Source: Geosiphon pyriformis
Lineage: Eukaryota; Glomeromycota; Glomeromycetes; Archaeosporales; Geosiphonaceae
Length of the DNA: 64,000 bases
Assembly: GCA_016748015.1 (NCBI GenBank)
Contig: JAAOMT010000786.1
Span: forward strand, 566,034 to 630,033
Reading direction: 5' to 3'
A program made the translations under genes and the position numbers. A model generated the notes under the pieces. It was not told where the DNA came from, did not search any database, and saw only the letters and a list, made by a program, of their open reading frames with translations. Numbering within the stretch: the first letter of the stretch is position 1; the number at the start of each line of letters is the position of its first letter. This document shows positions 5,320-60,445 of this stretch, in pieces.

Positions 5320-5717
5320 AATATAATATATCAAACTAAGTAATTTAAATTAGATATTAATCATGTATTTTCTATATATAACTAATTATCTAAGTCAATT
5401 AAAGCATTAATTAAGCTAAACCAAAAGAAGTTAAGAGTAAATTCTGTTTACTAAGTCTTTTAATAATATTATTCAAATTTCTAGAATTAAAAATAAATTT
5501 ACTTAAAAACAATTTATTTTTCTTAATATTATTTTTAATATTAAAACTACATATTTATCACAAAATAATTATATAATTACATATTTTTTTACTCAAAAAA
5601 CATGCTTTAGCAATACTTAAATCATTATTATTCATATTATTAAATTTAATCTCAGTTTTAAGATTTATAAAGTTTTTAAACAAACCAGCTAAAAAAAAAC
5701 AAAGCTCTAAAAAGTAT
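5320..5717 (-). mobile_element. 3' tail of a decayed LINE, cut by the LTR element
   Basis: Positions about 5330-5430 match the 3' non-coding tail of the better-preserved minus-strand LINE at 53530-53640 once C-to-T and G-to-A changes are allowed; the anchor is the 'atcatg.attttctata' block. The sequence upstream on the minus strand is too decayed to read as protein and ends at the LTR that starts at 5718. Moderate confidence that this is a LINE tail, low confidence on its limits. Confidence 0.4.
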
Positions 5718-6494
5718 TATTATTTATAAAAATTAAGAATTATAATAAATAGATAAAATGGCCAATTAGAAATAGGCATAATAAAAAAAAATTCCAGAAT
5801 TCTTTCAAAAAAATTGAAGAATTTCAAAAAATTTTATATAACATAAATTATGTATATATAGCAAAAGTATTAGAAGCAAAAAAGACAAACAATTCAGTTT
5901 AGAACAACAATACCCCTTCTTTCAAAAGATAGTTTTTTATAACTTGAAATGAAATTATACTTATATCAATAAAACATCTATTATTATTTAAATTCATATT
6001 ATTATTACTTAATTAAAAAAATATTAATCTATTTTATATTATTAATGCTTTATATTGATAAAATCTAATATTTAACTACATTGAACCAATAGCTCTTGAT
6101 TATGATTATTAATAGAATATTAATTTCTTATTTTTTTTCTTATTTTCTTTTTATTTTCTTTTATTTTGTTTTTTTTGTTGTTTACTAATTAATTAAAAGA
6201 TTAAGCACTAAGTAATTAATATTAAGAATAGTTTGGTAAAAGATCTGGAAACAAAGATAAAAATTTAAAGATAGCTTATTAGAAGAGCACAATTGCTAAA
6301 ATAAACTGGTTATTATATTGAAAAAAGAAATTCACAAAATAAAATTATCTATTAAATTTCTATTCATTATACAAAGAACTTAACCAAAACTTTTAGACTC
6401 TAAAATTTTCAAAAACTATCAATATTTTTAACTATTAAGCACCAAATTACGAGTTTGTTATTTGTTTTAACATTCCAAATAATTATCTGTAATA
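5718..6494 (+). repeat. 5' LTR of the gag-protease element
   Basis: It aligns along its length with 10071-10864, sharing for example the segments near 5735-5760 and 10084-10110 and the 'gtttgttatttgtttta' block near both 3' ends. Most differences I can see by eye are transitions. Confidence 0.8.
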
Positions 6495-6496
6495 TT

Positions 6497-6512
6497 TGGT
6501 GCTTTCTGTAAA
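6497..6512 (+). promoter_or_regulatory. Possible tRNA primer-binding site
   Basis: TGGTGCTTTCTGTA begins two bases after the 5' LTR end, where a primer-binding site starting with TGG is expected. The matching tRNA cannot be named because the site may have mutated. Confidence 0.35.
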
Positions 6513-7429
6513 ATATAATTTAACAAAAAACCAGCACTAACATTAATCATCCAAAAAAATTACAGAATTAGAAGTAATAGGAACAAATTATTTAAAATTT
6601 GCCAAATTTTTATTTTAATATTACCAAACTCATCTTGAACTAACAAGTAACTATTGGTTAGCAGAATTAGCTTTCAATTTATATGTTAACAAAAAAATTA
6701 AATTCTACTTGAGAAACCAAAAAGATCCAGAAGCCATACTTAAAATTTTTTATAGTGAATCACTCTAAAACATTATGTTTCCATAAAATTATTTGTTTAT
6801 TTTACTAATCACAAAGATAAATTGAAAAATTGAGAATTACACTCAACAGAAATTTTTTATTATCTTCACAAACAAAAATAAAGGAAAGTTACAAACTCTA
6901 ACAGAAAACCAAGAAAAATACAACCACTTACTTAAAAGAAACCAAAAGTTATTTCATCTATTTACTTATTATACTATTATATATCAAGAAGTACTATTCA
7001 TATATTATTTGGATCTGTATTATTATTAACTGTAAAAACACTATTATCTAAAATACTATTCTAAAATAATTAAAAGAAAGCCAAATTATTAGAAACCTAT
7101 GGCAATTTTTTTAAAGAATTTAAATTATAACCAACAATATTATTAAAACTTTGATTACCATTATCTCAACCAAATTTCGAATCTACTAGTAATTGGGCAG
7201 ATACCAAATCAAAAAAAAAAGAAGACAATAATCAGAAAAATAATAATCAAAACCCAATTCCAAATAACTTAAAAGTCTAAACTTTAATTGTTTTAATTTA
7301 ACAAAACCCAAACAATCTAAACCCAGCTCCTATTTTTCCACAAAACTTACCTTTAATTATCTTGATTAATCAACTGTCAGTAATACCAATTACTATTCAG
7401 TAATAACTACAACAATAACAACTTGCACA

Positions 7430-10051
7430 AATAGTATATACATTAATTGCCAAACTTAAAAAATTTACAAATGAAGAAAATAACATTTAAGTATACTTAA
7501 ATGATATGACAAAAGCCATTGCAGCCAATAAATAGAATAATGCCAAAGCATTTCAAGCCATACTATACTTTTTTTAGAATACTGCTAACTTGTAGTATTA
7601 GAGCTTAATCAATAAGTTACAAATCTTTAATGTATTTAAAACCATGTTTTTATAATATTTTAACAATCATAACAGTATTAATCAGTTATTAATTAGCTTT
7701 ACTACTATTAAACAAAACAATACTAAAACAATCACCATATATCTGAAATGTTTCTATCAAAATTTGCACCAAATCCAGACAATTAAAGCTAACTACTTTA
7801 CAACATCACAGATCTTAAATCAATTCATTCATAAATTATACAGCAACTTATTACAATGAGTATGCCTAATATACCCAAATACTTTCTAAGATATAGTTAT
7901 ATATACCAGAAATTTTGAATTGACTGAACTCAAAGCTAACTATATATAAGTCATAAATTTAGTTATAAATGAATTATTTAAATTGGATTCTAAGCTGAAA
8001 CAATTTAATAATTCAATCAACCAAAAATTAGAAAGATACTTAACTAACAATCAAGCAATCTATCAATCTCTTTAATATTGTGACAATTCAGAAAGTTTAA
8101 GTTGATTCTAAAATCAGCTGTGTCTATTATTATTATTATTATAAAATTAACTATGACAACAAAAAATGCATAATTGCTACTACTGTAATAAACAAGACTA
8201 TTTAAAAATAGATTGCTGCTTTAGATTTAATAACTCACAATTAGAAAACCAATATAGAAACTCTAATCACAGATTTCAAACCCAGAACTACACCAACAAT
8301 TTGTTATTAGAATTATACTAATCTTATTATGTACCAATAATATAATAATCTATATATATACCCTTAATATATCAAATTTTAGCACCAGTAATTTATTAAT
8401 TATAGTCACAAGTAATTTATCAACTTTAACAAATTTAAACACCATTCCAACATATTGTGCTAATATTAATTAGAAACTAAAAACTAAAAATTATGCACAT
8501 CTAATAAAACTAGAAATCAGTGATAGTAATGCACTAATCAATTATTGTAATATATAGATGCCAAAGTTAATAAACAATCTATTAAATTAATCTTTAATAA
8601 TAAATCAGCAAGCAGTATTATTACTTGACAATTTATAAACCAATTAGATTGTCAAGTTGATCATACTGCCACAGTTAAAATTATTACAACTAATGAAATA
8701 ACCAAGACTTTTATTGGTAAAATTAATGATTTCTTTTTCAAATTTAATAGCATTATTATATTTATTAAAGTTTTCATTATAAAAGTCACATAATACCAAG
8801 TTCTTATTAGTAATAACTAACTGTTCAAACTAATATTATGCTTAACTGGAATATTCAAGAGTTATAACTTAGTCAAAATAGTCAATATACTTGAATACTA
8901 GTAATTTTTAGTTATTTTAAAACAATTTAATCACAATTACTAATAGAATTTGAAAAAAAAATAAACAAACTTATCTAAAAAGCTTATCAAATATTGTGGA
9001 CTGAAGACAATCACAACAAACTATTACCAATCCTATTGTAAGATAACAAAAAAAAAAAAAAAAGAGAATAAACTGCAAGCTACTACTTTCACAAAAAAAA
9101 CAAATAATAGTTGGTATGTTCTATACTTAATAGAACCAAAAAAAACCCACTTTATATTTTATTCAGATACAAAGACTACAAGAAAAAGTTTTTATTCATA
9201 GAAGCTTAAATATTATTCAAAGAAAACTACAAAATCTGTACTTGCTTCTATTGTAAAATGGGCTACTAAAAACATTTTAGGTATTCAAAATGATAAGAAA
9301 AGTAGAACAACAAATTATGTTTCACTTGTAAAGAAACATTACTTAATAAAAGAATATGGAATGACATTCCTGGCTAAAGAAAAATGTGTGACACATCTTA
9401 TTAATACACAATTCTTATTAGTAATTGGATAAATTAAAGAATACTTTTTAATATTGTATAGAACCAAGTATTTTTGTATTTAAATAGCTATCTACATGAT
9501 GAAAATAAGATTTAAAGAATAACAATTGTTAAAATTAAAAACATTTTACCTAGTAAAATACTTATCATAAAAACCAATATATTAAAACTCATTAAAACTA
9601 TTTTTATTTCAAATTCAGACATTTTTGTCAATATTTTAAATAATTTAAAGCAATTTCACGAATATTATTAAGATCTAACACTTACTAAAGAAAAACAAGA
9701 GCAGTATTTAAAACAATTAAATACTAAACTCTGTAAACATTGTCTAATTCTTAGTGACTTTAAATATTGTGACAATTGTGATCTTATTTACAATTTATTA
9801 TTATATATTATTTATTTAATTCCCAAAGAAAAAGAACTAATTAGCAGCTGTGCTTCAAAATTAAAATTAAAATTTAATCCCAATTTAGTCTTCAATAATA
9901 ATAACAACAACAGTTTTAACTTTATCCATAATGATAATAACAATAATGATAATTTAAACTTCAATAAAAACTTCAAACAATATATTGTGTTTTCAAATCT
10001 TTTCAAGAAGCTAGAAGATTTAAAAGATTTAAAATATCTTGATGGAACTTA
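7430..10051 (+). pseudogene. gag-protease polyprotein remnant of the LTR element
   Basis: A degenerate reading, broken by many stops, follows the gag-protease layout I know from Glomeromycotina repeats. A gag block starts at about 7430 ('AQIVYTLIAKLKKFTNEE'). A CCHC knuckle lies near 8168-8210, where the reading is CYYCNKQDYLKIDC, so the zinc-binding His is Tyr. A retropepsin-like region spans about 8590-8900 ('SASSIIT.QFINQL'). Farther on, CxxC pairs occur near 9235-9370 ('LCFTCKE', 'WNDIPG.RKMCDT') and near 9720-9785 ('LCKHC', 'YCDNCDLIYN'). Stops sit where Trp or Gln would be expected (TGG to TAG, CAA/CAG to TAA/TAG). The product cannot be made as is. Confidence 0.7.
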
Positions 10052-10070
10052 ATATTAAAAAAAATAATAT

Positions 10071-10864
10071 TATTACTTATAGAAATTAGAAATTATAATA
10101 AATAGATAAAATAAACAATCAAAAATAGATATAATAAAAAGAAAAATTCCAAGATTCCTTTCAAGAAATTGCAGGATTCCAGAATTTTTTTCAAAAAAAT
10201 TAAAAAATTTCAAGAAATCTTGTATAATACAAATTATATATATATAACAAAAGTATTAGAAGCAAAAAAAACAGACAATTCAATTCAGAATAATAATACT
10301 CCTTCTTTTAAAAAATAGTTTTCTATAACTTAAAGTGAAATTATACTTATATTAATAATACATCTATTATCACTCAAATCCATATTATCATTATTTGATT
10401 AAAAAAATATTAATCTATTTTATACTATCAATACTTTATGTTGATAAAATTCAATATTTAACTATACTAAACCAATAGTTTTTGATTATAGTTATTGACA
10501 AAATACTAATTTTTTATTTTTTTTCTTATTTTTTTTATTTTGTTTTCTTTGTTGTTTACTAATTAATTAAGAAATTAAGTGCTAAATAATTAACATCAAA
10601 AATAGCCTGATAAAAAATCTGAAAACAAAGATAAAAATTTAAAAATAGCTTACCAAAAAAGCACAACTGTTAGAATAAACTAGTCATTACATTAAAAAAA
10701 ATTCACAGAATAAAACCATTAATTAAATCTTTGTCTATTATATAAAAAACTCAACCAAAATTTTTAGACTTCAAAACCTTCAAAATTACCAACATTCCCA
10801 GCTATTGAACATCAAATTACAAGTTTGTTATTTGTTTTAATACTCCAAATAATTATCTGTAATA
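10071..10864 (+). repeat. 3' LTR of the gag-protease element
   Basis: It matches 5718-6494. It starts just after an A-rich tract (10054-10067) in the position expected for the polypurine tract, and ends CTGTAATA immediately before GTAT. Confidence 0.8.
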
Positions 10865-11784
10865 GTATTAAGTATAATAAGCAAATTTTTTTCAACTTTG
10901 TGACTTTTGCACATATTGTTTAATATTAAAAAAGTAACTAAAACAACTAAAAAACTAATAAGTTCAATAATAAATTTTACTAAAACAATCAAACTTAAAA
11001 TCTAAAATTCTAAAAAATTCAATCTAGACTTAATGACAAAATCAATAATAAAAATAGCCAAAAAAACAATAAAAAAAAATTAAAAAAGCAGAAACTATAG
11101 CATAAGATATGTTATTAATAACAGAAAACATAAAAAACCAAGAGTTAACAACTGATTTTAAAGACAACTTGAAAAAAAAAGAGAAAACATCTTATAATTA
11201 ACAAACAAATGATTTAAATTTTAATATAATAGTAATAGCATTTAACAGTTTCTTATTAAATACAATATTTGTGTAAAGTATTAGTTTTTTTTATATTAAG
11301 CTTTAATATTTTTTTCTATTTAAAAGTAACAACAGCAAATGGTTAATAACAATAAGAATTTAGAAAATAAAAAATAAAACAAGTATGGCTACTAATTTAA
11401 AAAATTATATTACTAATTTTAAAAGCAGTATAGATAAAAAAAAAATTAACCAATTTGGTCTTAAAAATTTTTTTTGAGATAATAACTTTTTTTTAATTAA
11501 GAAAAAAAAAATTCAAATACTATTTTTTTTAATCTGTACAAATTAGTTATTAAAAGCAGCAGTAACAAATAAAAAGTTCTTAAAATTAATAATAATATAT
11601 TATTATAAACCAGTAAGTTTTAATTTAACAAAAATAACAATACCAAAAACACTAAAAATATTTTTAATATTATTAAAAAATATATTAAGAAAAACATTAT
11701 AAAATATAATAAAAATAAAAAAAAAGACCAGAAGCTACTACAAAAAATTTTGCAATCTTAAATATAAACAAAAAAAATAACCAC
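10865..11784. other. AT-rich relic between LTR copies
   Basis: No readable protein survives. The segment near 11560-11780 resembles 4960-5060 and 27540-27720, so it is probably the same old repeat family. No gene is supported. Confidence 0.45.
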
Positions 11785-12759
11785 TGTTACTCATAGAAAA
11801 TACAAAAAAAAAAGCTGAAAAAACAGATAAAAAAATAGACTAATAGAAGAATAATACTTAATATATAAGCACAATAATATATTGCTCAGCAATATGCATA
11901 TTGTTAGCAAATTATGACACACTGCTTAGCAATGTAAACAATGTTAGTAAATTATGGCACACTGCTCAACAATGTAAACAATATTAATAAATTAAAACAT
12001 ATTACTCAAGAAAATATGAAATTTCATAGAACAAAAAATATGTATATATAGTAAGAGTATTAGAAACAGAAAAAACAGAATTTATCCAAGAATTCAGTTC
12101 AGAATCAATACTCACAACTCATTAATTATTTTATATTTCTCTCTTTAAAAAGTAGTTTTCTATAACTTGAAACAGAATCAAATTATATATTAATAAAATA
12201 TTAATTATTACTTAAGTCTATATTATTATTGCTTGATTAAAGAAATATTAAACACTTCTACTTTATCAACACTTTATGTTGATAGAATCTAATACTTAAT
12301 TCTATTAAACCAATAACTTTTAATCATAGCTATTAACAGAATACTAATTTCTTAAATTTTTTAATTTTTTTTTATTTTTTTATCTTTTTTTACTTTCTTT
12401 TGTTTGTTTTGTTGATTTACTAACTGATTAAAAAAAATTAAGCATTGAGTATTTTAATATTAAAGATAGCTTGATAAAAGACCCAGAAATAAGTGTATAG
12501 AATTCGAAAATTAAAGATAGCTTATTAGAAGGGCATAACTGTTAAAATAAACCAGCCATTACACTAAAAAAAAATTGATGGAATAACTATTCTGAAAGAC
12601 TACTAAAACAACTATTGAATTTTTGTTCATTATACAAAAAACTCCATTAAAATCTTCAGATCATAAAAATCTTCAGATATTATCAATACCACTCAACTAT
12701 TAAACACCAAGTTATAAGTTAGTTATTTATACCAACACTCCAAATAATCACCTGTAATA
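11785..12759 (+). repeat. Solo LTR, long variant of the same family
   Basis: It begins TGTTACTCATAG and ends CTGTAATA. The 3' two thirds align with the LTRs at 5718 and 10071. The 5' part differs and contains three tandem variants of a roughly 50-bp unit (about 11870-12005) built around 'agcaatatg...ttagtaaatta', found inverted in the copy at 15716-16610. The flanks are CCAC (11781-11784) and TTAC (12760-12763), a 4-bp duplication if two C-to-T changes are allowed. No internal region or partner LTR is seen. Confidence 0.65.
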
Positions 12760-13681
12760 TTACTAATAGAAATTTTAATAACAATAACCAAAAAAGCTTT
12801 AAAAACAAAATTTATATAGAACAACTTAATATTATTTTTGGAAACCAACTTAAATCTAACAAAGCCAGACAATAAATAAAACAAAAAATTAACTAAGACC
12901 AACTTGATCTTAAAAATAAAGCCAAATATCAAAAACTATTTATTTAAAAAATTTTTAATAACTAAAAATTATTTTTCAGACATTATCAAAAACAGTACCA
13001 AAAACAAAAAAAAAGAAATTAATTTAATTTCTATTTAATTAGTTCAATTTTTAAAATCAGATAATTTAATAAATTGTTTTGTTTTTAGAACTAACAATAA
13101 TTTGCTAAAAGACACTATATTTGACAACACAATTAGTAGTTAATTTTAGTTTATTTTAAGAAACATATTATTATTAAAAACTTTTAGGCTTTTGGAAAAA
13201 ATAAAAATAATACTAGAACTAACTTGAATGTGTTTTTTAAAAAAACTTTAACTGATAAAAAATCACTAATTAAAAATAAAAAAAATGCTTTAAAAGCTGT
13301 CAAAATAACAGATATTAAGAATTTTTTTATTAACAAAAAGTATATTTAAGCCAAATTTTCTTAAAATGCACTTAAACATTAAATTTTTTTCAAATATAAT
13401 GCTCAAAAAAATATTGTTAAATAAATAGTTTTCTTATTTAGTTTTAGTAATTTTGTAGCTTATAATTGATTATTAAACACAGTTTAATTTTATGACTAAA
13501 AGTATATATCAGAAATAAGATATTATAATTAAAGAAGACTTTGATTTAAGACTAATTTGCCAAAAGACTTTACATTATCTATTTTTATATAGATTGAAAT
13601 TTTTTGAACAAATACAAGCAGAAAGCAAAATAGTTTTGGTAATTAAGTTCTTTAATATAGTAAAAATTCTTAGTTATTTAT

Positions 13682-14456
13682 TATTACTTATAAAAATTTA
13701 GGAATTCTTAATAAGAATATAAAGTAGTCAATTAGAAATAGGTATAGTAAAAGAAAAATTTTAGAATTCTAAGAATTTTAGGATTCTCGGCTAGAAAAAT
13801 TAAAGAAATCCAAAAAATTTTATATAATAGTAATTATGTATATATAACAAAAGTATTAAAAGCAAAAAAAAGAAGAATCAAATCTAATTTTCAATTAATT
13901 ATTCAATATCCCTTTCTTTAAAAGATAGAATCAAATTACATATCAATAAAATATCAATTATTATTTCAATTTATATTATTACTATTTGATTAAAAGAAAT
14001 TATAACCATTTTTATTTTATCAATACTCTATATTAATAAAATTCAATACTTAACTACACTAGACCAATAGCTTTTGATTATGGCTATTAACAAAATATTA
14101 ATTTCTTATTTTTTTTATTTTTTTTATTTTGTTTGTTGTTACTAATTGATTAAAAAATTAATACATGAAATTATTGACATTAAAAAAAACTGGTAAAAGA
14201 CTCAGAAACAAGGGTAAAAACTCAGAATTAAAAATAGCTTATCAAAAAAAACTGGCCATTAAGCTAAGAAAAAATTTACAAAATAAGCTTTTAAAAGGAT
14301 ACTGAACAACCATTGAATCTTTGTTTATTATACAAAAGACTCAACCAAAACTTTTAGATTACAAAAACATTTAGAATTACCAACAGCACCAAGTTATTAA
14401 GCACTAAGTTATGAGTTTGTTATTTATATCAACACTTCAAATAATCATTTGTAATA
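13682..14456 (+). repeat. Solo LTR inserted in the decayed LINE
   Basis: It starts TATTACTTATAA, ends GTAATA, and aligns with the LTRs at 5718 and 10071. It interrupts the LINE reading after 'ESKIVLVIKF'. The flanking tetramers are TTAT (13678-13681) and CTGT (14457-14460), which agree if transitions are allowed. Confidence 0.7.
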
Positions 14457-15715
14457 CTGTTTAAATACTGTTTTTTGAATTTGCAAATTGCAAGCTGGAT
14501 ATTAATAAACTTATTGTAATATCTAATCATATTAAAAGTTAGCTCTATAAATAATTTTTTTGTAAACATAGTAAAAATATTTTTAAACAACAAGATTTCT
14601 TTGGCAAATAATTTGCTTAATGTTTTTTGTTTTTTTGGCTGGTTTTTGATGTTTAAAATTTTGGGTAATTTTTATTATTTTGGTGTGGTTTATTCTTTAA
14701 AGTGTTTTAAAATTGTTTTATAAAACAGATTGTTAAATAAACATAGATTGGTGATAAATTAAAAGACTTTTCATTGTTAAAAAAAATTGAGTTTTAAAGA
14801 TCTAATACTATTGTGATTTGTAAAAATTTTAATCTATATAAATAATTCCTCTGTTAAAACTAATAAAATTATTTTTAGTTTGGTTGTTTAAATTTTTTGT
14901 GCTTGAAAAATTTTTCGAATATTTGGAAATATTTGCACAAACTATGAACTAAAGTAATTAATATTTATATTAATAGTTTTTTGAAAAAATTGGAAACAGC
15001 AAAGATGACTGATAGAAAAGTGGCTTATTTTTTTAATATTAAAATAAAAATAGGTATTAAAGTTTACAAATTGTTGTTTTTAATAATAATAAAACTATAG
15101 ACAATTGTTTTGGCTTTGAAATATATTCTTTTGTCTTGTTTAATAGTTTTGTAAACAAATAGTTAAGCTATTATAAATGCATATAATTTGGAGTTCAAGC
15201 AGTATTTATCAGATTTTTAGAATAAATATTGAATAAAAAGCATTATGTAACTAATTTAATTAGATTTAAGAATATTTTAATGTAATAAGTAAAAATCAAA
15301 AAACATTTAAAAAATATTAGCAATAATTGGACAAATATTCTTGCTGGTATTATGATATAATCTCATATAATTTTTCTTATTAGTGTTCACAAAAGATTTA
15401 TTATGGCTAATAATTTGGTTATTTTGGACAATATTTGTTATTTTGTTTATAATATTTATTAGATTATTTATTATACTCAATAAAAAGTGAATTTAGATTT
15501 AAGTATTATTAATAAATTATTTATTTATAAGATAAATTGGGCTTGTACTGTTAAAGTTTGGCATCCAAATTTTTATATGCTTTCTAGATTTATAAATAAA
15601 GCTTTAATAACTCTATATATATATTTGATAAAAGCAGTTTATAAAAAATTGTCAATTGTGATTAAAAAAAACTGTATAACAAAGATTATTCAAATGTTTT
15701 CTACTTGTTATATAG

Positions 15716-16610
15716 TGTTACAGATAATTATTTAGGATGTTAAAACAAATAACAAACCTGTACCTTGGTGCTTAATAGCTGTTGATGATAATAGTTTTTG
15801 AAGATTTTGAAGTCTAAAAATTTTGGTTAAGTTCTTTGTATAATGAACAAAAATTTAATTAATAGTTTTTTTTGGTAAAATTTTTTTTTAGTGTGATAAC
15901 TGGTTTATTTTGACAGTTGTGCTCTTTTAATAAGCATTTTTAAGTTTTTTATTCTTGTTTTCAGATTTTTTACCAAATTATCTTTGATATTAATTACTTA
16001 ATACTTAATTTTTTTAAGTAATTAATAAACAATAAAAAAAACAAAACCAAAGAAAATAAAAGAAAATAAAAAAATGAAATAAAAAATTAGTATTTCATTA
16101 ATAAGCATAATTAAAAACTATTGGTTTAGTATAATTAAGTATCAAATTTTATTAATATATTTGTTAATAGTATAAAAGTAATTAATATTTCTTAATTAAG
16201 CAATAATAATATAAATTTGAATAATAATAAATAATTTTATTGATAGGTATAATTTCACTTTAAGTTAATAAAAACTATTTTTTGAAAAATAAGGTATTAA
16301 GTAATTATTAATCTCTAGCTACTGTTTTTCTATTTGAATCTGTCTTTTTTGCTTTAAATACTCTTATTATATATATATAATTCTTGTTATATAAGATTTC
16401 ATACATTTCTGAACAATATGCTATGATTTTCTAATAATATATTTATTATTAAACAATATGTCATAATTTTTTAACAATGTGCTTATTGTTAAACAATATG
16501 TCCTAATTTTCTGAAAATATACTTATTTATTGAGTATTATTCTTTTATTAATTTATTTTTATTATTTGTTTTTTTTACTTCTTTCTTGTACTTTTTTTTT
16601 ATAGGTAACA
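15716..16610 (-). repeat. Solo LTR inserted in inverse orientation in the decayed LINE
   Basis: It begins TGTTACAG and ends GTAACA on the + strand, so it has perfect TGTTAC/GTAACA terminal inverted repeats. Its reverse complement matches the long LTR variant at 11785-12759, including the tandem unit (about 16420-16530). The LINE reading stops at 'MFSTCYI' before it and resumes with 'LNHVFTC' after it. The flanks ATAG (15712-15715) and GTAA (16611-16614) agree if transitions are allowed. It is the only copy here with both canonical ends. Confidence 0.75.
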
Positions 16611-17270
16611 GTAATAATATTGAACTGTTAAATCATGTTTTTACTTGTTTAAAAAATATTTTTATATGCTTTAAAATTTTATTAAATTGTGTTAAATTGT
16701 AAAAGTCTGTAATAAAAGCTTGTTTTTAATGTTTTTGGTGCTTCAGATTCTTTTATAATATATTTTGAATATAAATATCTATACAATTTTATGCAAAAGT
16801 TTTGTTTTCAAAAATTGAATTAATAAAATAGTATTGGTTTTTGGTAATAAAAAAGAAATAATTTTAATAATAATTAATTTTGTCCACTATTTATCTAAAA
16901 AACACTATAATGTATTATGATTATTTAAATCCAAATTTAGAATAAATATAAAAAAAATAGCTTGATTAATAACACAAAAATTTTATTAGATAATATATAT
17001 AGATTGTTTAATATTTTATTAAAAAAAGTGGTTTATTTGCTTAGTGTTGTTGAATTATTTGCTATTAGTTTTAATTTGTGTAGAATTTTTTTGTTTTTTT
17101 CAGATTTAGATAATAGTATAAGTATTTATATAAGTGTATAATATTGTTATAATTGGTCTAAGTGATTGATCATATATAATAAATACATAAATCATATTTA
17201 GTTGAGATTATTTAGTTTGTTTTTATATATTAAATAGTAGTTAAGTTATACTTATTAAATAATAATAAAT

Positions 17271-18490
17271 AAAATAAAATTTGGCTTAAATATTTTATAA
17301 AATTATATTATTTATAATTTTAAAAATAATTTTATTTTTATTAAAATTAAGTTGGTTTTTTTAATATAATATTTTTATATATATTTAATATCTAACTTTT
17401 TATTAATATTCTTATAAAAACTGTTTATTTTATTATTTTACAATACAAAATTTTTAAAAAACACATTAGATTTATTTATTTTTTTATTTAAATTATTAAT
17501 AAATATTTTTAATACAAATATATTAATATTTAACTTTCTGGTTTTTTTGTTAAATTTGTTAAATTTAAAATTTAATATATATTTTTTTTATATTAAAATA
17601 GGTTTATTTTTACTTTTATTTTTAGTTATATTTATAATAATTATGTTTGTTCTATTTAACTTTATAAATAAAAAAAACCAAATAAAAAATTTTTTTTTGC
17701 TTTTTTTATAATTTAAAATAAATATATAAAACAATAATATATGCTAAATTAATAAAAAATAATATTTTTTAAAAGTTTTAAAAATTTTAAAATAATTAAA
17801 ATTTGATAAATTAATAATTAAACTTGTTAAATTGGTTAAAAAAGCAACAAAAATCAGTTAAATAATTTATTTTAATTATAATAACACAATACAAAAATTA
17901 CATAAATAATATATTTAAATTAATCAAAATAAAAGTTTTTAAATAAACCAAAAAACTGTTTTTTTATAATACAATCTTTTTTAAATTATAAATTAATTTG
18001 TATTTATGTTTATATTATATAAAAAATTATTATTATTTAATTTTAATGTTATACAAATTTTATTAATATTTTATTAAATTAATAAAACATTATAATTATG
18101 TTATTTTCGAATTTAAAATTATATTAATATTAAAATATTATTTTTAATATTTAATATTTAATTATTTTAAATTATTTCAGTATTTTTTAAGTTGATTATA
18201 TAAGTTTGATAATTTGTTATTTTTTCTTAATTTTAACAAATTTTTCCAGTTTACAATTTACATATTTACAAATTATTTATTTTTTAAATTACTTAGTTTT
18301 TAAGCTATTAATTAATTTTATTTAAGATAAACCTTTTACTGAAATTAATTCAGATGAATATAATTTGCCTTTAAGTATATCAATTTTATAAAAAATATAA
18401 TTATTTTTCTACCACCTTTTTGGGTTTTGGAATTTTTAATAATAAAATTATGGAAATTGATAAAGATGAATGACTGAATTTATTCTACTT
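17271..18490. other. AT-rich relic without recognisable genes
   Basis: Long A/T runs and short imperfect inverted repeats are present, for example around 17280-17600. No protein homology survives in any frame I read. The composition becomes normal after about 18490. Confidence 0.5.
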
Positions 18491-28109: not shown

Positions 28110-28127
28110 TAAATACAAATATTACAA

Positions 28128-29447
28128 AAAGTCAATTTTGTCAGAAAAATCTTTTCAGGTGTAAATGGTTTTGGAGGGGCCTCTACTCCCTCAAAATTTG
28201 GTGGAATCATTTGGACTACTTTCACTTCTGAAGAGACGATGATGACTGCAGCTAATCTGGCTAATGACCGTGGTGTTGTGGTAAACACTAATCTCAAGCA
28301 CCCTGTCAACAATCGTACAAATCGGGCAATTGTGCTGAAAGAAATTTCTGTGAGAACATCTTTGGAGGCTGTGCATGTGGCTGTAGCCGAATTTGGCTTC
28401 ATTAAGTCAATCAAAATGCAGCTGGTGGGTTTATGGCAAAAGACGATCATCGAATTGGAAGATCAAGACCAGGCTGATTTTCTGGCCTCTAAGTGGTCTA
28501 TCCTCATTGAGAAGGACATGATTCGGGTGGCCAGGACTAATATCAACAAACAATCGTGAGATGCCAGGGATAATTTTAGGGCTTTGCTATATACTCTTCC
28601 CATGGGAACCACTGCTCATGATTTGTGGGATTTTATTGGTTCTATTGATGAGAAAACCTGCTTCATCGATCGCAATCCCATCAGTTATTCTCACGTCCGC
28701 TGTGCCACTGTGTGTTTTAGCTCAGAAGAGGAATTAGTTAATGCAATGGTGACGACTTTAATTATAAAGAGCTTTGGTCTTCATTGGTCCCGTCTTTCTT
28801 TAGCTTCATGTGCAGTTTGTAAGAAATTTGGTCATACTTCTCTTGGTTGTAGAACAGTCAAGGGTGCCAGGATTGCAGGAGGCAGAAAGGCTCGCCTTTT
28901 GGTTCAGGACCAATCCAGATTGGCGAAAATTTATGCAAGGAGATCTGTACCTATCTCTCGTCCTTTGGCTTTTGGTGGTAAAACTTGGGCATTGGTGGTT
29001 AGTGCTCCCTCTGCTCCCTCTCTCTCTGGTGATAAGACAAGTTTTGGTTCCGTCGTCAATGGTAAACCTACCCCTCCTGTTGCAAAAGATCTGGAAAAAA
29101 GACTGGTCAGTATCGAAGATGGTCTTGTCAGTCTCGCAAAACAAATTGATGGGTTGGCCAAGAGGTTAGATTTGCTTGTGCTGGTGGTTCCCCAGTCTGG
29201 TCATGGATGCCGGCTGCCAGTAGTCGCCCCGCCACAGAATTCGGAAAGTGATGTGACATTAGATATAGACTTGAGTATGGCTAATGGCCATGAGTCTGCC
29301 ATGGTTGTGGACTCATCCACGTTCCCCCATGTTGTCAAGTTGGAAAATATGTTGGAGAGCCTCTCCAAATCTGTGTTGATCTTGTCCACTCATTTCGATA
29401 GTCTGGCTTTGGCTGGTGGTGCGAACTTCCAATCCCCCTTCCAATGA
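28128..29447 (+). pseudogene. LINE A ORF1 (nucleic-acid binding), one internal stop
   Basis: The partial ORF1 reads in one frame from about 28128 to the TGA at 29445-29447. A TGA at 28557-28559 interrupts it where copy C has Trp ('CETWTSRDQFRALL'), so TGG to TGA is the simple explanation. A CCHC zinc knuckle, CAVCKKFGHTSLGC, lies at about 28810-28851. ORF1 proteins of this kind bind the element's RNA. The stop of ORF1 overlaps the ORF2 start as ATGA (29444-29447). Confidence 0.8.
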
Positions 29448-32400
29448 GTGAATTAGTATGGAGAGTCACTACATGCAATATTAGAGGAATGAACAACCCT
29501 GCGAAGCAGGGTGATGTCGTTCGTTGGCATAAGGACATGGACAATTCAATTTCGATTTTTACTGAAACTAAGTTAAAAGGTAAGGTTCGGCCCTGGATCA
29601 TTAACAAGTTTGATGGGGTTTGGGTGTTTACTACTGGTTTGGATTCTGGATATCTGGGTGCTGGTGTGGTGGTGGTTATGAACTCTTTTTTGGCGAGACA
29701 TGTGTGCAAGGTGTCTGAGGTCCTGGGTTGGTTGTTGTCTATCAAGTTACTTTTCAAGAACAGGCTCTCTGTGTCAATTTTGGGACTGTACGCTGGCACT
29801 TCTTCGGCGGTCCGGTTCTCTCAGGCAGGCAAAATCAACTCTATCATCGCAAAAGCTGTTAACGAGTCCTCCTTTGTTATCCTCGGTGGCGATTTTAATG
29901 AAGACGGCTCTCATAAGTGTGCGAGTTTCAAGAAGTGCCTTGATTTGGGATTGATTAACTCTTTGGTCAGGAGCCCGGCTGTGAAAATGCCCACTTGGGA
30001 GAACTCTAGGGGTGTTAAAAGAACAATTGATTACATGTTTGTCTCTCCGAATCTGGTCAATGCGATGGTGCATCATAATGTTTCGGGTGTTAGTGAGCAC
30101 TTTGACATGGATTATCAAGCTGTCTCAGTGTCTTTGGATCTGGGTGGGCTTCTGAATATGCAATTGAGCTCTTTTCGCAAGCAAGCAAACAGAAACAGAT
30201 GGAAGTTTGATTTCAAGGGTGCTGATGAGAGTAAATAGATCAATTTTAAGTGTGCCACATTGGCTAATGCAACAATGTTCTCAGATGAGTTTGCTGTTTC
30301 TGTGAGGTTTTTGGATTTGGATGCAATGTGGGATGTTGTTCGCAGAATAATGATTCTTTCGGCTAATAAAGTGTTCAAGAAAAAGTGGTTCAAGGAATTT
30401 GATGGTGTCTTTACCAAAGAGTCATCAAGGTTCCACAAGTTGGAGCTTCTGGTTTCAAAAATTATTAAGGCTTTTCGTGTAGGGTGTGCTGTGGATTTTG
30501 CTTCTCTTATGAGATGTTGGGCTTCTCTGGACAGTGTCAAGGCTTTGGTCGTTCAGGATCTGGTGGACTCTGGTGTGGAATCTGGTCGTGTTTGTTCTGC
30601 TTTTTTTGGTACCAGAAAATCTTATCGAAAGTCCAAGCTCATTGAATCTCAGAGTACTAAAGAAGCATGCATCAGATCTGCGATAGACAAGAAGATGGAA
30701 AGCTTTGAGATAAATAAAGGTCATACAATAAGAAGTGTGTTGGAGCACCCATTTCGTAAGATTGTGCTGGATCATTTGGTGGTTGATGACGAATTGATTT
30801 TGGAACCTGAGCAGGTCAAATCCAAGGTAGATGCGATCATGGAAGGTTGGACTAGGAAGCGTTGGGTGGTCGATAATGTCTCGGATGATTGGTGCCTTCA
30901 ATATTAGCCGCTGGAGTATGTTTTTGACGAAGCTTTTTCTGGTGTCATGTGTTTGATTGGGTATGATGAGTTCTTTGGGGTGATTTCTGATCTTCCGGAG
31001 GGTAAAGCGGCTGGTTTGTCGGGTATTTCAAATGAGCTTTGGAAACATTGTGATAGGTCAGTTTTGAATATGTTGTTGGTGCTCTTGAATTCTTGTTTGT
31101 CTAGTGAGTCAGTGCCCGGCCCTTGGAAGGAAGCATGGGTCTCGATGATTCCGAAACCTTATGAGTGAGAAGGTGTTTTAACGAACACACGTCCTATTGC
31201 CTTGATCGAAACAGCTCGCAAGGTTCTTTTCAAGATACTCTCGGACAAGATTTCTTTGGCGTGCAGTACTTTTGACATGCTTTGAGGGGCTAATTTCTCA
31301 GTTTTGAAGGATATAACAACCCAGTCTCCTATTTTTGCAGTTGGTTCGGTGGTCGAAGATGCTTTGGAAAAAAACAGGGAGCTATGGCTGGTTCTGCAGA
31401 ACATGCGGAAGGCATATGACTCGGTTGGCTGGGAGCATCTCGAGAAAAGTTTGGTCAGGATTAAGATGTGTAGCAAGTTTATTCGGTTTTTTGGTGGTAT
31501 TCATAGGGATCGTACCAACTGAGTCATGACTGATTTTGGACTGACAAGCGGTTACCGTGTGCACGATGGTTTGGACCAGGGAGAGGTCTTCTTTTCTCTT
31601 CTCTGGCGCATATTTTATGATCATCTTTTGTGCGAAGTCAAAAGACAGGAGAGTGTATGTGGGTATAGGTTGAACTCTCACTTTGTTTCCAAGAATGGTC
31701 GTTCCAAATTCTAGACTGGGTTTTCTTTTTTTTTTGCCGCTGGTGCTTTTGTTGATGATACAATTTGGGTTGGTAGCAGTCAGATGGCTACTCAACATAT
31801 TCTCGATGTTGCTAGTGAATTTTTTTTTATCAATGACATTTCTATTAACAATGACAAAACGGTAGCCATTCCTATCAATAGCAGAGTCAGCAGTCCCTCC
31901 CTTTCTATCAGCGGTTTGCCCATTTCTATTGCCAAAAAGGGCAAATCTCACTGATATTTGGGCATTTTTCTATCAACTGAGGGTCTTTCAAAGCCTAACT
32001 TGGCTAAGACGCATTCGGACATTCGCTTTTTTACCAATCTGGTGTTGAGGAAGGCGGTCTCAGATAAGCAGTTTTTGTATTTGGTGTCGGCAGTTCTGCA
32101 TCCGATAGTCAGCTATAGAACTCAGTTCAGTTTTATTCCTGTTGGTGTGTGCGGGAAGTGGGATGCTCTGATTCGTAAAGGTTTGAAGCTCAAGTCTGGT
32201 TTGCCACTCAATTTCCCCAATAATATGGTTTACCACCCTTCGTTTTATGGTTTGAAGTTATTTTCTCAAGTTCAATCTGAAAGCAAGATTGTTTTCCTTG
32301 TCAGTTTTGCGAACTCTGGTGGTATCTTGGGTCGTTTGTTTTCCCACAGGTCTCATGACTTGCAAGTTTTGTGTTGGCACCCTGTTCATCCATTGTGTTC

Positions 32401-34132
32401 TCCTGTTCGTATTTGTGTCAGTGCTTCTAATAACTTTCTGGCAGGCATGGTTCGTGTTCTTGTCGATTGCAATGTGTCTCTGGGTGGCTCTTTGGTTAGT
32501 TTCTTTTGGTCTTATGGCGGAGTGCCTATGTCTGAGGTTCTGGGCGAGTCAAGGTTTCTCAAGTTTCTCCCTTCCCTCCAGCGGTATGGTATTGTCTTTG
32601 TGAATCAACTTTGTGACCATTATGGTGCTGTCTATGATTGGTACACTTTCAAGCGGTGGAAGAGATTGGACCCCCATGGCCCAGTTCCTGAGTGGTTCAA
32701 GCATTCTGTTTTGTTTCTCAATAGTGTGAGATCTTTTCGCGATCAGTCTCTAGTTTTGGAAGATGGTAGTCCTTCGAACATTCTTGAGTCTGGTGATTTT
32801 GTGTCTATTCATGATTGTCTCTTGGTGACCGGTGCTAGCAGTCTGTCAGTGTATACGGATGGATCTCTTAGTGGTCTTGGCATGGTTGGCTGTAGAGCTG
32901 GTGCTGCTGTTTTTTTTGAGGACATTGGTTTGGGTTTGGGCGTAAGGGTTTCGGGTTTGATGTCATCTACTTTGGCGGAATTGCAGGCTGTTGCTTTAGC
33001 TCTGGAGTGTGTTCCCCCATCAAGCTCTGTTTGTCTGTTCTCAGATAGTCAATCGGCGTTGAATGCTTGCAGGTCAGAGTTAGATCTGGTGTGTCCTGAT
33101 TTTCGTAATCAGTATTGGGTCAAACGTCATCATATTGTCAACGTAATTTGTAGTAAGAAGTTAAGGGTTAGCTTTTGCAAGGTGAAAGGTCATTTTGGTG
33201 TTCCGAGAAATGAGCGTGCTGATGCGATCGCTGGTGCCGCTTCTCTCTCCAATTGGTATCTTCCCCCTTGCTTGAGTGAGCACTTCTTGGCAGCTGATGG
33301 TGATGTTGTTTCTGGAAATTCGAGGCATTTTGTTCGTGATATTTATTGTTCTATTTGTCGTGTGCGGTGGGAGGTTGGTTCTGGTTCTGGGGTTTTGGCT
33401 GGCAGTTTGTCTTCTGAGGTTGATTGGCCCTGTTCGTTGTTGGTGTGTCATCCTGATTTGCACATGGCTGCAGGATTCACCAGCAGGTATTTGTCCAGTA
33501 TGTGTACTTATTTTATAAAGTCTTTGCACCATCGGCTGCCAGTTGCTGTTCGAAAGCGCCTCTATGATAAACGTTATCCTAACGTGTTGTGCTTGTATTG
33601 TGATGAGGTGAAAGTGTCGGATCATGTATTCTCTTGCAAGGTTGACAAGTCTGTTTGGCGCCAGTTGTTGAATTCTCATGTTGGGTTCTGGAAGGTGCTT
33701 TCTGGCTTCTCTCACTCCTCCTCGGGTATATTACAGCTGTTGTCATCCAGTATTTCTGATTCCTCTGTGTCTATGGCTCTTTTTAAGGGCTTTGTTTTCA
33801 ATGGATGGTTTAGCGAGGCTGTTTCCATTTTTCACGACCCCAAGATTGCTGTTTTGGAAATCGTCAAGTTTGTGCACTCTCTTGGTCTTGCTTTCAGGAA
33901 GGATGTCTGGTCGATTCGTGCTAAGCATCGTGCGTATATGGAGAAGAATGGACTGATCCCGCTAGATGGTTCAGCCATCGTCTCAGTTCATGGTTTGGCT
34001 TCGAGGTTCTCTGCAGGGGTGGTTAAGTTACTTGGCATTACTAGTGCTTTAGGTGTTCATTTTGGTTTTCACAAGACTTGCTTGTTTTTTTCAGGTATAG
34101 GTGAATCAGTGTCAGTTCATATAGCTGTGTAG
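29444..34132 (+). pseudogene. LINE A ORF2: endonuclease, reverse transcriptase, RNase H, seven stops
   Basis: One frame of 1,563 codons, broken by seven stops at 30236, 30905, 31166, 31283, 31520, 31712 and 31952. Order of domains: APE-type endonuclease (about 29450-30140, 'GGDFNEDGS', 'RTIDYMF'), reverse transcriptase with 'AFVDDTIW' at about 31745, RNase H (about 32850-33240: 'SVYTDGSLSG', 'LAELQAVALALE', 'LFSDSQSALNAC', 'KGHFGVPRNERADAIAG'), and a zinc finger 'CLYCDEVKVSDHVFSC' at about 33592-33640. The endonuclease C-terminal motif reads DMDYQAV where copy C has NTDHKAV, so the catalytic His is replaced by Tyr. The part from 31955 on is an intact 700-codon frame. Confidence 0.9.
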
Positions 34133-34375
34133 TGTTGTTCTGATCAGCCCGAGTGGTTGGTCATGTGTAGAAAGTGCATGATTCATGCCTAGTTTAGATC
34201 AATTCCTTGATGTATAGTGCTAGGTAGTGTTTGGACCTCACTCGTTAAGCGAAAAAAAAAAAATTACAAATAGTTTAATAAAAACTACATATTATATATA
34301 ATTAAATTATTAAAGTTTAATAATTTATCAAAAAAATAATTAAATACCAAAATATTTTTTTATTATTAATGCATT

Positions 34376-53519: not shown

Positions 53520-53647
53520 TTTTTTTTTATTGTTTAATGAGTGAAATCCAAACATTACTTAGTACAATACATCATAAGAGATCTAAACTAGGCATGAATC
53601 ATGCATTTTCTATACGTGACCAGCCACTCAGGCCAATCAAAACTACA

Positions 53648-56600
53648 CTAAGCATCTATAATAACCAACACAGAATCCCCAATACCTGAAAAAAATAAAC
53701 AAGGTACATGAAAGCCAAAGCTAATGCCAAAAGCCTCTGCAATACCCAACATCTTTATTACTTCCACAAAAAATAATGAAGAAAGACCACACACTAGGCC
53801 AGAAACAAAGCCATCTTTAGGAATCAGGCCACGCTTTTCCATTAAAGCATGGTGACTCACACGAACCAGCCAAACCTCATTCCTAAAAGCAAGACAAAAA
53901 TTTCGCACAAATTCCACCACTCTTTGACAACCAATCTTCGAGTCCCTGAAAACTGAAACTGCTTTCTGAAAACAAAGTTTGAACATAAAGCCCTTACAAA
54001 ATGCCAAACACAACAAAGTATCAAAAATGCAAGAGAGCATAAGCTGTATAAGTTGTGATGATAACTGGGGTAAACTGGAGAGTGCTTCTCAGATAGCCGC
54101 ATACATGTCCAACAGCTGAGCATGGATAGCAGTATCAAAACCACAAGAGAAAACATGATCGGAAACTTTGACTTCACCACAATACAAGCATAAAACACTG
54201 GGATAAGATCTACTATAAAGGCACTTGCAGACAGCAACAGGCAGTTGATGATGTAAAGCCTTCATGAAGTAAGTACAAACACCGGCAGAACATTTATCAG
54301 TGGAACCAGCAGCCATATGCATATCAGGATGCCACACGAGAGAAGACCTACACCAGTCCACATCATCATGCAAACTGGTGACCAAGACCCTAGAACCCAA
54401 ACCAATCTCCCATTGAATACGATGAACACAATGGAAAATATCATGAACAAAATGTCTAGAATTCCCAGAAACAGCCACACCACCTGCCAAAATATAGCAT
54501 GCATTCACATGCAAAGAAAGAGAATGTTCAGACATAGCAGCAGCTGTAGCAAGAGCATCTGCATGCTTATTACCCACAACACCAGAATGTCCTTTGACTT
54601 TAAATCAACAGATGTTCAGATTTTTATTATGAATCAAATTGTAAATGTGACAGTATTCTAACCAGCATCAATTTTGAAAGTCCAGAACCACCAGACCCAG
54701 CTTAGATTTGCATGCATTCAAAGCTGCCTGATTGTCAGAGAACAAATGAACAGAACTAAAGGGGGAAACACACTCAAGAGAAGACACCAAACCAGAGACT
54801 TCAACACCCAAACCCAAATCAACACCATCAAAAAAAATGGCAGCACCAGCCTGCATGCCAACAGTACCCAAACCAGCCAAAGAATCATCAGTATAAACCA
54901 AAATACTATCAGTATTAACACCAAGTAGACAATCGCAAATTGTAGCAAAATCAATCAAATCTAGAACATTTCAAGGGACAACCCCACCAACAGCAGAAGA
55001 CGTGACAGAAATGAGAGCCACTATGTTGATAAAAGAAACTGAAAGATCAAACCAGACAGGAACTGGCCCACATGAGTCCAACCACTTCCAACATTTAAAG
55101 GTTGTCCAAGTAAAAGCAGTCCCACTGCGGTTTTGAAGTTGGTCCACAAAAGCAACACCATAACACCGAAGAGACAAAAGACATCTGACAAATCTAGACT
55201 TACTAAGAACAGATATCATAGAGGTCCCTTTTTGAAAACAAAAAGCATTGGCTCCAATGCCACTCAGAGAAAGATTATAATTATGAAATATATAAACCAA
55301 GCCTGCCAAAAAATTATCAGAAGCACTAACACTAATACGAGTAGGAAAATCCAAAGGATGGATCAAATGCCAACACAAAACTTACAAGTCATAAGATCTG
55401 TAAGCAAACAAATGACCCAAAATACCAACTGAATTTGCAAAACAAACAACAGACACCACTTTGTGTTCAGTCTGGATTTGTTCAAAAGTTTTCAAGCCAT
55501 ACAATGAGAGGTGATGTAATGCATTATTGGAAAAATCCAAAGGCAGACCAGATTTTGATTTCAAACTCTTGCGAATTATAGTATCCCATTTGTTGTACAT
55601 ACTAGGAGAAACAAAGCTGAACTGAGTTCTGTAATTCACAATAGGGTGAAGGACTGAAGACACCAAATACAAAAATTGTTTATTAGAGATGGCCTTTTTT
55701 AACACAAGATTAGCAAAAAACTTGATGTCCAAGTAAGCTTTAGCAAGACTGAGTTTAGAAAAGCCTTCAGTGAACAAAAAGATACCCAAATACCAATAAG
55801 ATTCCCTCTTTTTGGCCACAGATATAGGCATCTCACTTATTAAAAGAGAGAGATTTGCAATCCAGCAGTTGATAGGAATGGTCACGGTCTTATTATTGTT
55901 AATTGAAATGTTATTAATCTTAAAAAATTCACTAGTAACATCTAAAATGTGTTGTGTCACCACTTAACTACTACCAACCCAGATTGTATCATCCACAAAA
56001 GCGCCAGCAGCAAGAAATGAAGTTAACCCAGCTTGAGATTCCACACAACCAGTCCTAGAAATGAAATGAGAATTCAACCTATACCCACATACACTCTCCT
56101 GTCTCTTAACCTCACACAGAAGAGGATCATAAAATATCTGCCAAAGAAGAGATGAGAAAACCTCTCCTTGGTCCAAGCCATCATGCACATGATAACCACT
56201 TGTTAGTCCAAAATTGGTCATAATCCGGTTGGTATGACTACCATAAACACCCCCAAAAAATTGGATAAACTTGCTACACATTTTGATCCTAACCAGACTA
56301 TTTCTGAGATGTTTCCAACCAACAGAATCATAAGTCTTTTGCATGTCCTACAAAACCAGCCAGAGCTCCCAGTTCTTTTCTATAGCATTCTTGATCACTG
56401 AACCAACCACAAAAATGGGGAACTGAGTCGTAGTACCCTTTAAAACTAAAAAATTGTCATCATAAAGAACGTCGTACTTGCTGCACACCAATGAGATCCT
56501 GTCAGAAAGAATTTTGGAGAGAATCTTGCAAGCTGTCTTAATCAAAGCTATAAGATGAGTATTAGTGAGCATGTCTTTTCATTCATAAGACTTAGGAATC

Positions 56601-58177
56601 ATCGAAACCCAAGCCTCCCTCCAAACACCAGGAATTGATTCATCAGAAAGACAAGAATTGATGAGCACCAAAAGCATATTAAGAGCTAAACCATCACAAT
56701 GCTTCCAGAGTTTGTTGGAAATGTCCAAAAGACCAGCAGCTTTTCCATCAGACAGATTGGAGATCACACCAAATAATTCAACAAAACTAACACAGTCTAT
56801 AACATTGGAAAAGGCACCATCAAAAACATGTTCTAGAGGCTAATACTGACAAGACCAATCCTTAGGCACATCATGAACCATACCTTGCTTCTGTGTCTAA
56901 TCCTCCATTATCTTATCTACTTTATCTTTAACATGATCAGGCTCCAAGATCAGCTTTTCACCCACCACCAAATGATCTAAAATGACTTTGCAAAAGGGCC
57001 ACTCTAAGACACTCCTGATAGTGTAACCTTTGTTTGACTCAAAGCTCTCCATCCTTCTATTAATAGCAGACTTGATATAAGAATTCTCAGCACATTTCAA
57101 CTCTAACAACTTAGAAGCATGATAAAATTTCCTGATCTTTGAAAGAACAGATTGTATATCATTCAAAGGAGAGCCTAAGAGAAAAAGAGATTTCACCAAC
57201 AAAGCATTAACAGAATTAAGCAGAATCCAAGTTTCCAGCAGTGAAGTGAATACATCATGATCAATCAACCGGGAAGCTTTAACCAATTTAGACACCAGCA
57301 GCTCTAATCTATAAAACCTGGATGAGGTTTTGGTAAAAACTCCATCATATTCCTTGAACCATTTTTTTTTGAAAACCACATTTGCCAAAAAACACAATGT
57401 CTTATGAACAGCATCCCACATAGCATCCAGATCCGAATGCATTTTGGCATTCAAGAAATTATCAAAGAGCATGGCAGCATTAACTGCCATTTCATCCTTA
57501 AACTTTGACCATAAAGCATCATCAGCATCTTTAAAATTGTACTTCCAACAATCCTTATTTGCCTGTTTATGCAATGAGTTTAATTGCACATCCAGCAAAC
57601 TGCTAAGACCCACAGAAACAAAAACAGCCTTATGATCAGTATTGAAAAACTTCTCAACACCAGTCACACCACGATCTAAAATCGCATTAACTAGATTCAA
57701 TGACACAAACACATAGTCAATAGTTTTGGCAACTCCCCAAGAATTATTCCACATAGCTTCTTTTCCATATGAGCTCCCACCCAAAGAGTTAACCAAACCT
57801 AAATCAAAACACCTTTTGAAACTTGCACATTTGTAAGAACCATCTTCATTGAAATCGCCACCCAAGATGATGAAAGAAGACTCATTTACTGCCCTTGCAA
57901 TTAAAGAATTAACATTATCTGTCTGAGAGAAACGAACTGCCAGAGAAGCTCCAGCATACAGCTCCAAAACTGAGACAGAAAGATTATTTTTGAAAAAGAG
58001 CCTGAGAGAAAAAAACTGGCCAGAAATATCCAAAACTTTGCATACATGCCGAGCCAAAAAATTGTTTATAATAATCACAATCCCAGAACTCAGGTGACCA
58101 GAATCCAAACCAGAAGTAAAAACCCAAACACCATTAAACTTGTTCATGATCCAAGAACAAAGAATTTGAATTTGCAA
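53648..58177 (-). pseudogene. LINE C ORF2: truncated endonuclease, reverse transcriptase, RNase H
   Basis: A single frame from 58177 to 53648, broken by at least eight stops and no frameshifts that I can find. Endonuclease: 'GGDFNEDGS' (about 57850), 'KTIDYVFVS' and the intact 'NTDHKAV' (about 57635); the first 40-50 residues are missing. Reverse transcriptase: 'GAFVDDTIWVGSS' (about 55970-56015). RNase H: 'LVYTDDSLAGLG' (about 54890, where copy A has YTDGS), with a shortened 'VSGLVSSLECVSP' lacking the 'LAELQ' segment. C-terminal zinc finger: 'CLYCGEVKVSDHVFSC' (about 54140-54190). Two stops (56840-56842 and 56579-56581) fall at the same positions as stops in copy A. Confidence 0.85.
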
Positions 58178-58199
58178 CCATAGACAAAACTAAAGCAAG

Positions 58200-59840: not shown

Positions 59841-59960
59841 ATCCACAACAAATGGGTTATGTGTAAAAAAAATAGTGAAATAAAACAGATAGAAAAAACA
59901 AAAAACTTCTTTCAAAATTGTGCTCTTTGGGGAATTTGGGATGTATGAGAGAAAAAAGTT

Positions 59961-60445
59961 TTTATTTTGTTTTATTAAAAAAAAATTATAAATTTAAATT
60001 AAATTAAAAAATTTTAAATAAATATTATTTTAATTAAAACTAAAAATAATATAAAATTATTTTATTTAATTTAACATTATATTATTTTATAATTTTATTA
60101 TTTAATTATTAATTATATAATTTATTTATATATAATAATTATATAATTTACATATTAAAAAATTAAATTAATAATTAGTTTTATTTTATTTTTAAAACTT
60201 ATTAAATTGTTTTTAAATTAGTTTTTTACTAATTTTAATTATGTTAATTAATAAAATTAAATTAACTGTAAATAATAATTATATAATTAATTATATAAAT
60301 TACATTTATTTTAAAGTTTTTATTATATTATAATAATTAATAATTAAATTATACTTATTAATAATAAATATAATAATAATAATAATAATATATATTTTTA
60401 TTATTATTCTATTATTTAATGTAATTATTTTAGTCAATAGTTTTT
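59961..60445. other. AT-rich spacer between LINE copies C and D
   Basis: A/T-only runs and an (AAT)n tract near 60372-60390. No gene is supported. Confidence 0.6.

Follow-up and report, generated by a model that had tools for sequence, protein, structure and literature searches.

Three unrelated kinds of transposon in this genome (a LINE, a Ty3-type family and DDE_1 DNA transposons) differ among their copies almost only by C>T changes. The reading favoured here, at a probability of roughly 0.6, is that a chronic, mitotic-RIP-like C>T mutator, tied to silenced and probably cytosine-methylated transposon chromatin, is at work or was until lately. The signal is best classed with RIP-like mutation linked to methylation and kept apart from RIP proper.

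LINE A and its stop codons

The window (the whole stretch of DNA analysed, 64,000 nucleotides) contains a non-LTR retrotransposon copy, LINE A, and an older LINE copy, copy C, with the following features:

28126..34263, forward strand: LINE A, a 5′-truncated non-LTR retrotransposon copy with a terminal run of 12 A; the stretch is that common to the sister copies, up to about 34263
28126..29447, forward strand: ORF1 of LINE A, cut at its 5′ end, with an internal TGA stop at 28557-28559; the pieces 28113-28559 and 28560-29447 lie in one frame
29444..34132, forward strand: ORF2 of LINE A, 1563 codons, with internal stops at 30236, 30905, 31166, 31283, 31520, 31712 and 31952 and no frame shift
29471..30085, forward strand: endonuclease domain of ORF2, a weak match (PF03372, E = 3.7e-4; PF14529, E = 1.7e-4; both below the Pfam cut-off)
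32840..33241, forward strand: RNase H domain of ORF2, a clear match (PF00075, E = 2.8e-13)
53580..59993, reverse strand: copy C, part of which is 71% alike to LINE A; its CpG observed/expected ratio is 0.20 over 53580-59000

LINE A was considered 5′-truncated because all 11 sister copies examined share upstream sequence (0.86-0.94 identity to sister L005) that the window copy does not, its identity there being 0.26. The eight letters TACAAATA occur near both ends of LINE A (28105-28125 and 34264-34285), perhaps as part of a target-site duplication.

The first-pass annotation had described seven stops in ORF2 and a frame kept over all 1563 codons, and both were recovered at the positions listed above. 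Its claim that every stop lies one transition from sense also held: for each of the seven, between 5 and 14 of the 14 close sisters have a sense codon that a single G:C>A:T change would turn into the stop (Trp twice, Gln twice and Arg three times). Only the Trp it had placed opposite 31952 needed amending; Trp is what the distant copy C reads, but closer sisters carry an Arg codon (five) or its G:C>A:T-changed form (seven). The stop in ORF1, the eighth in LINE A, corresponds to a Trp codon in 10 of 15 copies. The single changes able to create a stop in ORF2 number 538, made up of 98 G:C>A:T transitions and 440 transversions, so that seven of seven stops by G:C>A:T would have a chance of 6.7e-6 if all 538 were equally likely. 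Over the 30 ORF2 copies fetched, 188 of 193 internal stops could be reached by G:C>A:T alone from the sense codon of another copy, while five could not. Internal stops averaged 4.9 per copy in 15 copies, where the context rates (see below) alone predict 5.8. The ORF2 stops would be a by-product of the C>T mutator.

Spectrum, strands and context of the changes among LINE copies

The assembly searched comprises 124.7 Mb in 406 contigs. A search at the DNA level with ORF2 as query, in which 31 of 3729 first-look candidates were scored, gave a list of 34 matches, and 30 copies were fetched. The 14 closest sisters among the matches listed (L002-L015) were 93-94% identical to LINE A, from which each differed by 261-319 transitions and 6-20 transversions; none had more than one indel relative to LINE A, and six had one. 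Over the 105 pairs that can be formed from the 15 copies, 31067 transitions were counted versus 1526 transversions (243-331 versus 1-26 per pair), the closest pair differing by 243 transitions and a single transversion. Mean transition/transversion ratios against a consensus are given as 1.2 for Arabidopsis transposons and as 2 to 25.7 for RIP-bearing or biased fungal genomes in the data of PMC4352252, and the ratio seen here lies within the range of the RIP-bearing genomes. Changes were then polarised by taking the commonest letter in each column as the reference, and counted in cells, a cell being one copy at one site. G:C>A:T changes were present in 2533 of 32849 G:C cells and A:T>G:C changes in 210 of 37322 A:T cells, and transversions in 135 cells (99 at A:T and 36 at G:C). 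The C>T load was even between copies (mean 206, variance 160; 14 copies, the shorter L003 being left out), and mutation rates were similar along the first 6 kb of the LINE. The matches listed for the ORF2 search included neither a nearly un-mutated copy nor a freshly changed one; an un-mutated copy, it is inferred, would have outranked the best sister (94%).

An artefact of sequencing or assembly might arise where long-read base callers make errors at modified cytosines, as some of them do. Such an origin is scarcely credible: up to a fifth of the CpG cells of a copy are changed, some changes are common to subfamilies and indels are nearly absent; moreover, the changed sites vary between copies, and the pattern is missing from gene copies in this assembly. 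Sequencing error is thus an unlikely source of the stops.

The two strands of LINE A were affected almost equally (C>T 0.075 and G>A 0.069 per site). No strand runs were detected in it, 509 of 1003 neighbouring changes being alike versus 503.5 expected (s.d. 15.5), a result that speaks against bursts each affecting a single strand. Both strands were changed at 44 of 3941 CpG sites, versus 193 if the two changes were independent and ∼61 if the second occurred at the CpA rate, an expectation that rests on one rounded rate. The small number of doubly changed sites implies that the partner was no longer a CpG target once the CpG of one strand had been lost, and that the changes came singly, with replication between them. 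The mixture of strands, the single CpG changes and the even load fit a chronic process linked to the maintenance of methylation more readily than a small number of bursts. They weigh against canonical RIP, in which duplicates would be recognised by homology before meiosis and mutated from C to T in bursts by a RID-type enzyme, even though G:C>A:T changes nearly alone, confined to repeats and in the ratio given above, are what that process would leave. The symmetry of the strands and the lack of runs also speak against AID/APOBEC-like editing of retroelement cDNA during retrotransposition. This would account for an excess of C>T in retroelements, but the DDE_1 DNA transposon is affected too, which nearly refutes it; on these two grounds this very remote explanation was dropped.

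The changes depended strongly on sequence context. In the LINE set, CpG cells were changed at 0.225 and other cytosines at about 0.04. Among the latter the rate was 0.054-0.062 where the preceding base was C or T, but 0.026-0.027 where it was A or G, a roughly twofold preference for a preceding pyrimidine. This preference at non-CpG cytosines was found in all four transposon sets (95% ranges of the ratio 1.89-2.47, 1.63-2.13, 1.72-4.25 and 1.53-2.69), while copies of Sel1-type genes showed no clear one (0.64-1.92). For the base before CpG, in contrast, the pyrimidine/purine ratio was 0.81-0.99 in LINE A, 0.78-1.10 in an older LINE group and 0.97-1.97 in the Ty3-type family. Since CpG is nearly indifferent to the preceding base and non-CpG cytosines prefer a pyrimidine there, the context seems to have two parts, CpG and pyrimidine-C. 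The mark of 5-methyl-CpG deamination is present, CpG being the most mutable site and its partners changing one after the other, but non-CpG cytosines are not at background: they account for 1158 of the 2533 G:C>A:T changes, in 26743 cells, versus 36 transversions at G:C and 210 A:T>G:C changes. CpG decay is therefore insufficient as the sole cause. Rates differed little between codon positions 1, 2 and 3 (non-CpG 0.045, 0.042 and 0.043; CpG 0.219, 0.209 and 0.248), which fits changes made after insertion under little selection. No preference for CpA was detected among non-CpG sites (CpA 0.039, CpC 0.058, CpT 0.040), and this rules out RIP as recognised by its CpA mark.

The pyrimidine preference, which APOBEC-type and UV-type contexts resemble, could also point to deaminase action or faulty repair limited to heterochromatin and not involving cytosine methylation. 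However, the CpG part exceeds the rest about fivefold and shows no such preference in LINE A, and the CpG partners behave as one target, which argues for methylation in at least the CpG part. An explanation without methylation is thus unlikely.

Other transposon families and gene copies

The Ty3-type family, identified by its reverse transcriptase and RT RNase H domains, was analysed over 1 kb, with nine of its 40 listed matches as the copies compared. Its 36 pairs yielded 1450 transitions, 16 transversions and no gap; when polarised, changes were present in 187 of 3492 G:C cells and 12 of 5490 A:T cells, with two transversions. For the DDE_1 DNA transposons, 16 pieces of 0.5 kb were sampled from 150 matches listed. 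Fourteen of them form one cluster, with 361 G:C>A:T changes, 113 A:T>G:C changes and nine transversions; the family is older, and much of the 113 probably reflects a mutated letter taken as the reference. The two pieces outside the cluster (L060 and L063; 18 transitions, four transversions) were set aside. For MULE transposons there were just 18 matches, 17 of them interrupted by stops, and these were left out of the analysis. Some DDE_1 matches are unlike most in lying in stop-free frames of 163 codons (G000:C327:118960, C283:616775, C346:1615426, C262:479182 and C366:816213), a group that perhaps evaded mutation or has been co-opted by the host. A further match, G000:C85:136265-136552, lies within a stop-free open frame of 3109 codons, an exceptional length, and is perhaps a fused or host gene.

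Older repeats occur in the window itself:

4001..18000, no strand assigned: AT-rich block that includes five or more decayed copies of a repeat; 18% G+C, seven CpG in 14 kb, CpG observed/expected 0.06

These copies, with 1.18-5.08 transitions per transversion, are too old for a clean ratio, and are probably older victims of the same C>T process.

Two sets of gene copies served as controls. The first was a Sel1-type family, represented by five copies of about 0.8 kb and 83-88% identity (the query plus its four top matches among 140 listed, a number in which overlapping pieces count separately). Its 10 pairs showed 0.73-1.55 transitions per transversion, and the changes comprised 74 G:C>A:T, 73 A:T>G:C and 140 transversions; codon-position figures were discarded because the reference copy, L041, changes frame. 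The second was a duplicated cytosine methylase gene on contig C318, whose copies are about 90% identical and differ by 50 transitions versus 25 transversions, with five gap openings. The C>T pattern is absent from the Sel1 copies and weak in the methylase duplicate, where the ratio of 50:25 is itself above 1. Alignment of copies, the check suggested in the first-pass annotation, thus gave, for three transposon classes, a large surplus of transitions with a constant context, and for two gene controls an absent or weak pattern. These controls, one family and one duplicate, are short, older or more diverged than the transposon copies and possibly under selection, and a small C>T effect in genes may therefore exist. 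That Sel1 copies and the methylase duplicate are unaffected, or hardly affected, is a further point against canonical RIP, although the length and identity of the Sel1 copies are presumably near the limits for that process. Together with the burst and CpA results this leaves canonical RIP quite improbable. The transition mutator that had been proposed from LINE A, RIP-like or acting through methyl-C, is supported by spectrum and context; strict RIP, with CpA not preferred and gene duplicates apparently spared, gains no support.

Methylase genes and comparison with known systems

A search for DNA methyltransferase genes of RID/Dim-2 type had been suggested; DNMT1-type and BAH-plus-methylase-type genes are present. 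A DNMT1-like gene lies on contig C96, and genes with BAH and methylase pieces on C355 and C327, the BAH match of C327 being below the cut-off. The duplicated gene of C318 (G000:C318) encodes a short cytosine methylase (L031/L033, near 788280), with a damaged-looking duplicate (L035, near 820713) about 32 kb away on the opposite strand. No BAH match was found in the pieces of the short methylase that were scanned, which would favour canonical RIP, but its ENV motif is one that we take to be unlike that of RID. By their motif, the genes on C307 and C346 are presumably DNMT2. Two methylase matches contain stops, which introns may explain.

Since their insertion, the transposon copies have accumulated G:C>A:T changes on either strand and few of any other kind, reaching about 0.2 of CpG cells and, in the two younger families, 0.02-0.06 of the remaining cytosines. 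Under the chronic, methylation-tied mutator, the CpG part would come from deamination of 5-methyl-CpG maintained by the DNMT1-type enzyme, and the pyrimidine-C part from non-CpG methylation or direct deamination by a BAH-containing methylase, or from another deaminase, the resulting mismatches being poorly repaired in transposon chromatin. These particular families are probably methylated; in Rhizophagus irregularis, methylated CpG is described at transposon loci (PMC8647823).

Parts of this pattern are known from other fungi. In Zymoseptoria tritici, Dim2 is described as causing mitotic C>T changes in methylated transposons, >98% of them at CpA and with CpG spared (PMC8016269). The present case resembles that mutator in its nearly pure C>T changes in transposons, gradual, on both strands and explainable without meiosis, and in the presence of BAH methylases; it differs in that CpG is the most affected site, the rest being pyrimidine-C, and the CpA context is not seen. 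A CpG-type C>T bias in transposons has been linked to Masc2/DNMT1-type enzymes, for instance in Microbotryum (PMC4352252; PMC5381629), with which this genome shares CpG transitions in transposons, a DNMT1-type gene and no preference for CpA. However, the target described for Microbotryum is TpCpG, whereas in the present genome the base preceding CpG has little influence and there is the additional non-CpG part noted above. With canonical RIP as described for Neurospora and relatives the likeness is that repeats carry G:C>A:T transitions which cut their reading frames short (PMC13297926, PMC7862722); unlike it, the present changes show neither CpA preference nor signs of bursts, gene duplicates are apparently spared, and none of the methylase genes listed above is clearly of RID type.

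Accounts of RIP in Gigaspora margarita give it as lacking or undetected (PMC7082362, PMC8647823), and a search of titles and abstracts in the open-access literature found, among the papers listed, no report of C>T transposon mutation in Glomeromycotina. A screen of 1,239 genomes, comparing k-mers in repeats with those in other non-coding DNA, is reported to have detected RIP-like signatures enriched in repeats in ascomycetes and hardly anywhere else (PMC12543289). Such a screen would probably register little here, with a LINE of 44% G+C beside blocks of 11-18%, although C>T accounts for most changes among the copies. Screens based on composition would probably miss the process because the transposons are richer in G+C than the surrounding non-coding DNA. 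Alignment of copies family by family could test for the process in other early-diverging fungi with existing genomes. If the organism is an arbuscular mycorrhizal fungus, a group long thought asexual, transposon-directed mutation would be separated from meiosis and from RID, and pyrimidine-C would be a second context to trace to an enzyme. The fuller proposal, of a two-part (CpG plus pyrimidine-C) transposon-directed C>T defence outside the Dikarya, operating in an arbuscular mycorrhizal fungus without CpA targeting or homology search and perhaps without sex, is offered tentatively and at less than even odds.

With respect to the identity of the organism, no match to the ACP domain of fatty-acid synthase alpha was found in the assembly, a result that is weak evidence because the 14 control genomes were all prokaryotic; loss of fatty-acid synthase is described for Glomeromycotina (PMC10234402). 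Taken with a large Sel1-type family, a Kre9/KNH domain and AT-rich intergenic DNA in this genome, it gives a hint, short of proof, of an arbuscular mycorrhizal fungus. A universal small-subunit rRNA 16-mer had no exact match in the assembly; since the rRNA genes thus seem to be missing from it, the absence of the AML2 primer site is uninformative. Elsewhere in the window, a gene at 19825-21513 (forward strand) encodes an Asn/Gly-rich repeat protein that has no Pfam match and, towards its C terminus, a hydrophobic segment of membrane-like character.
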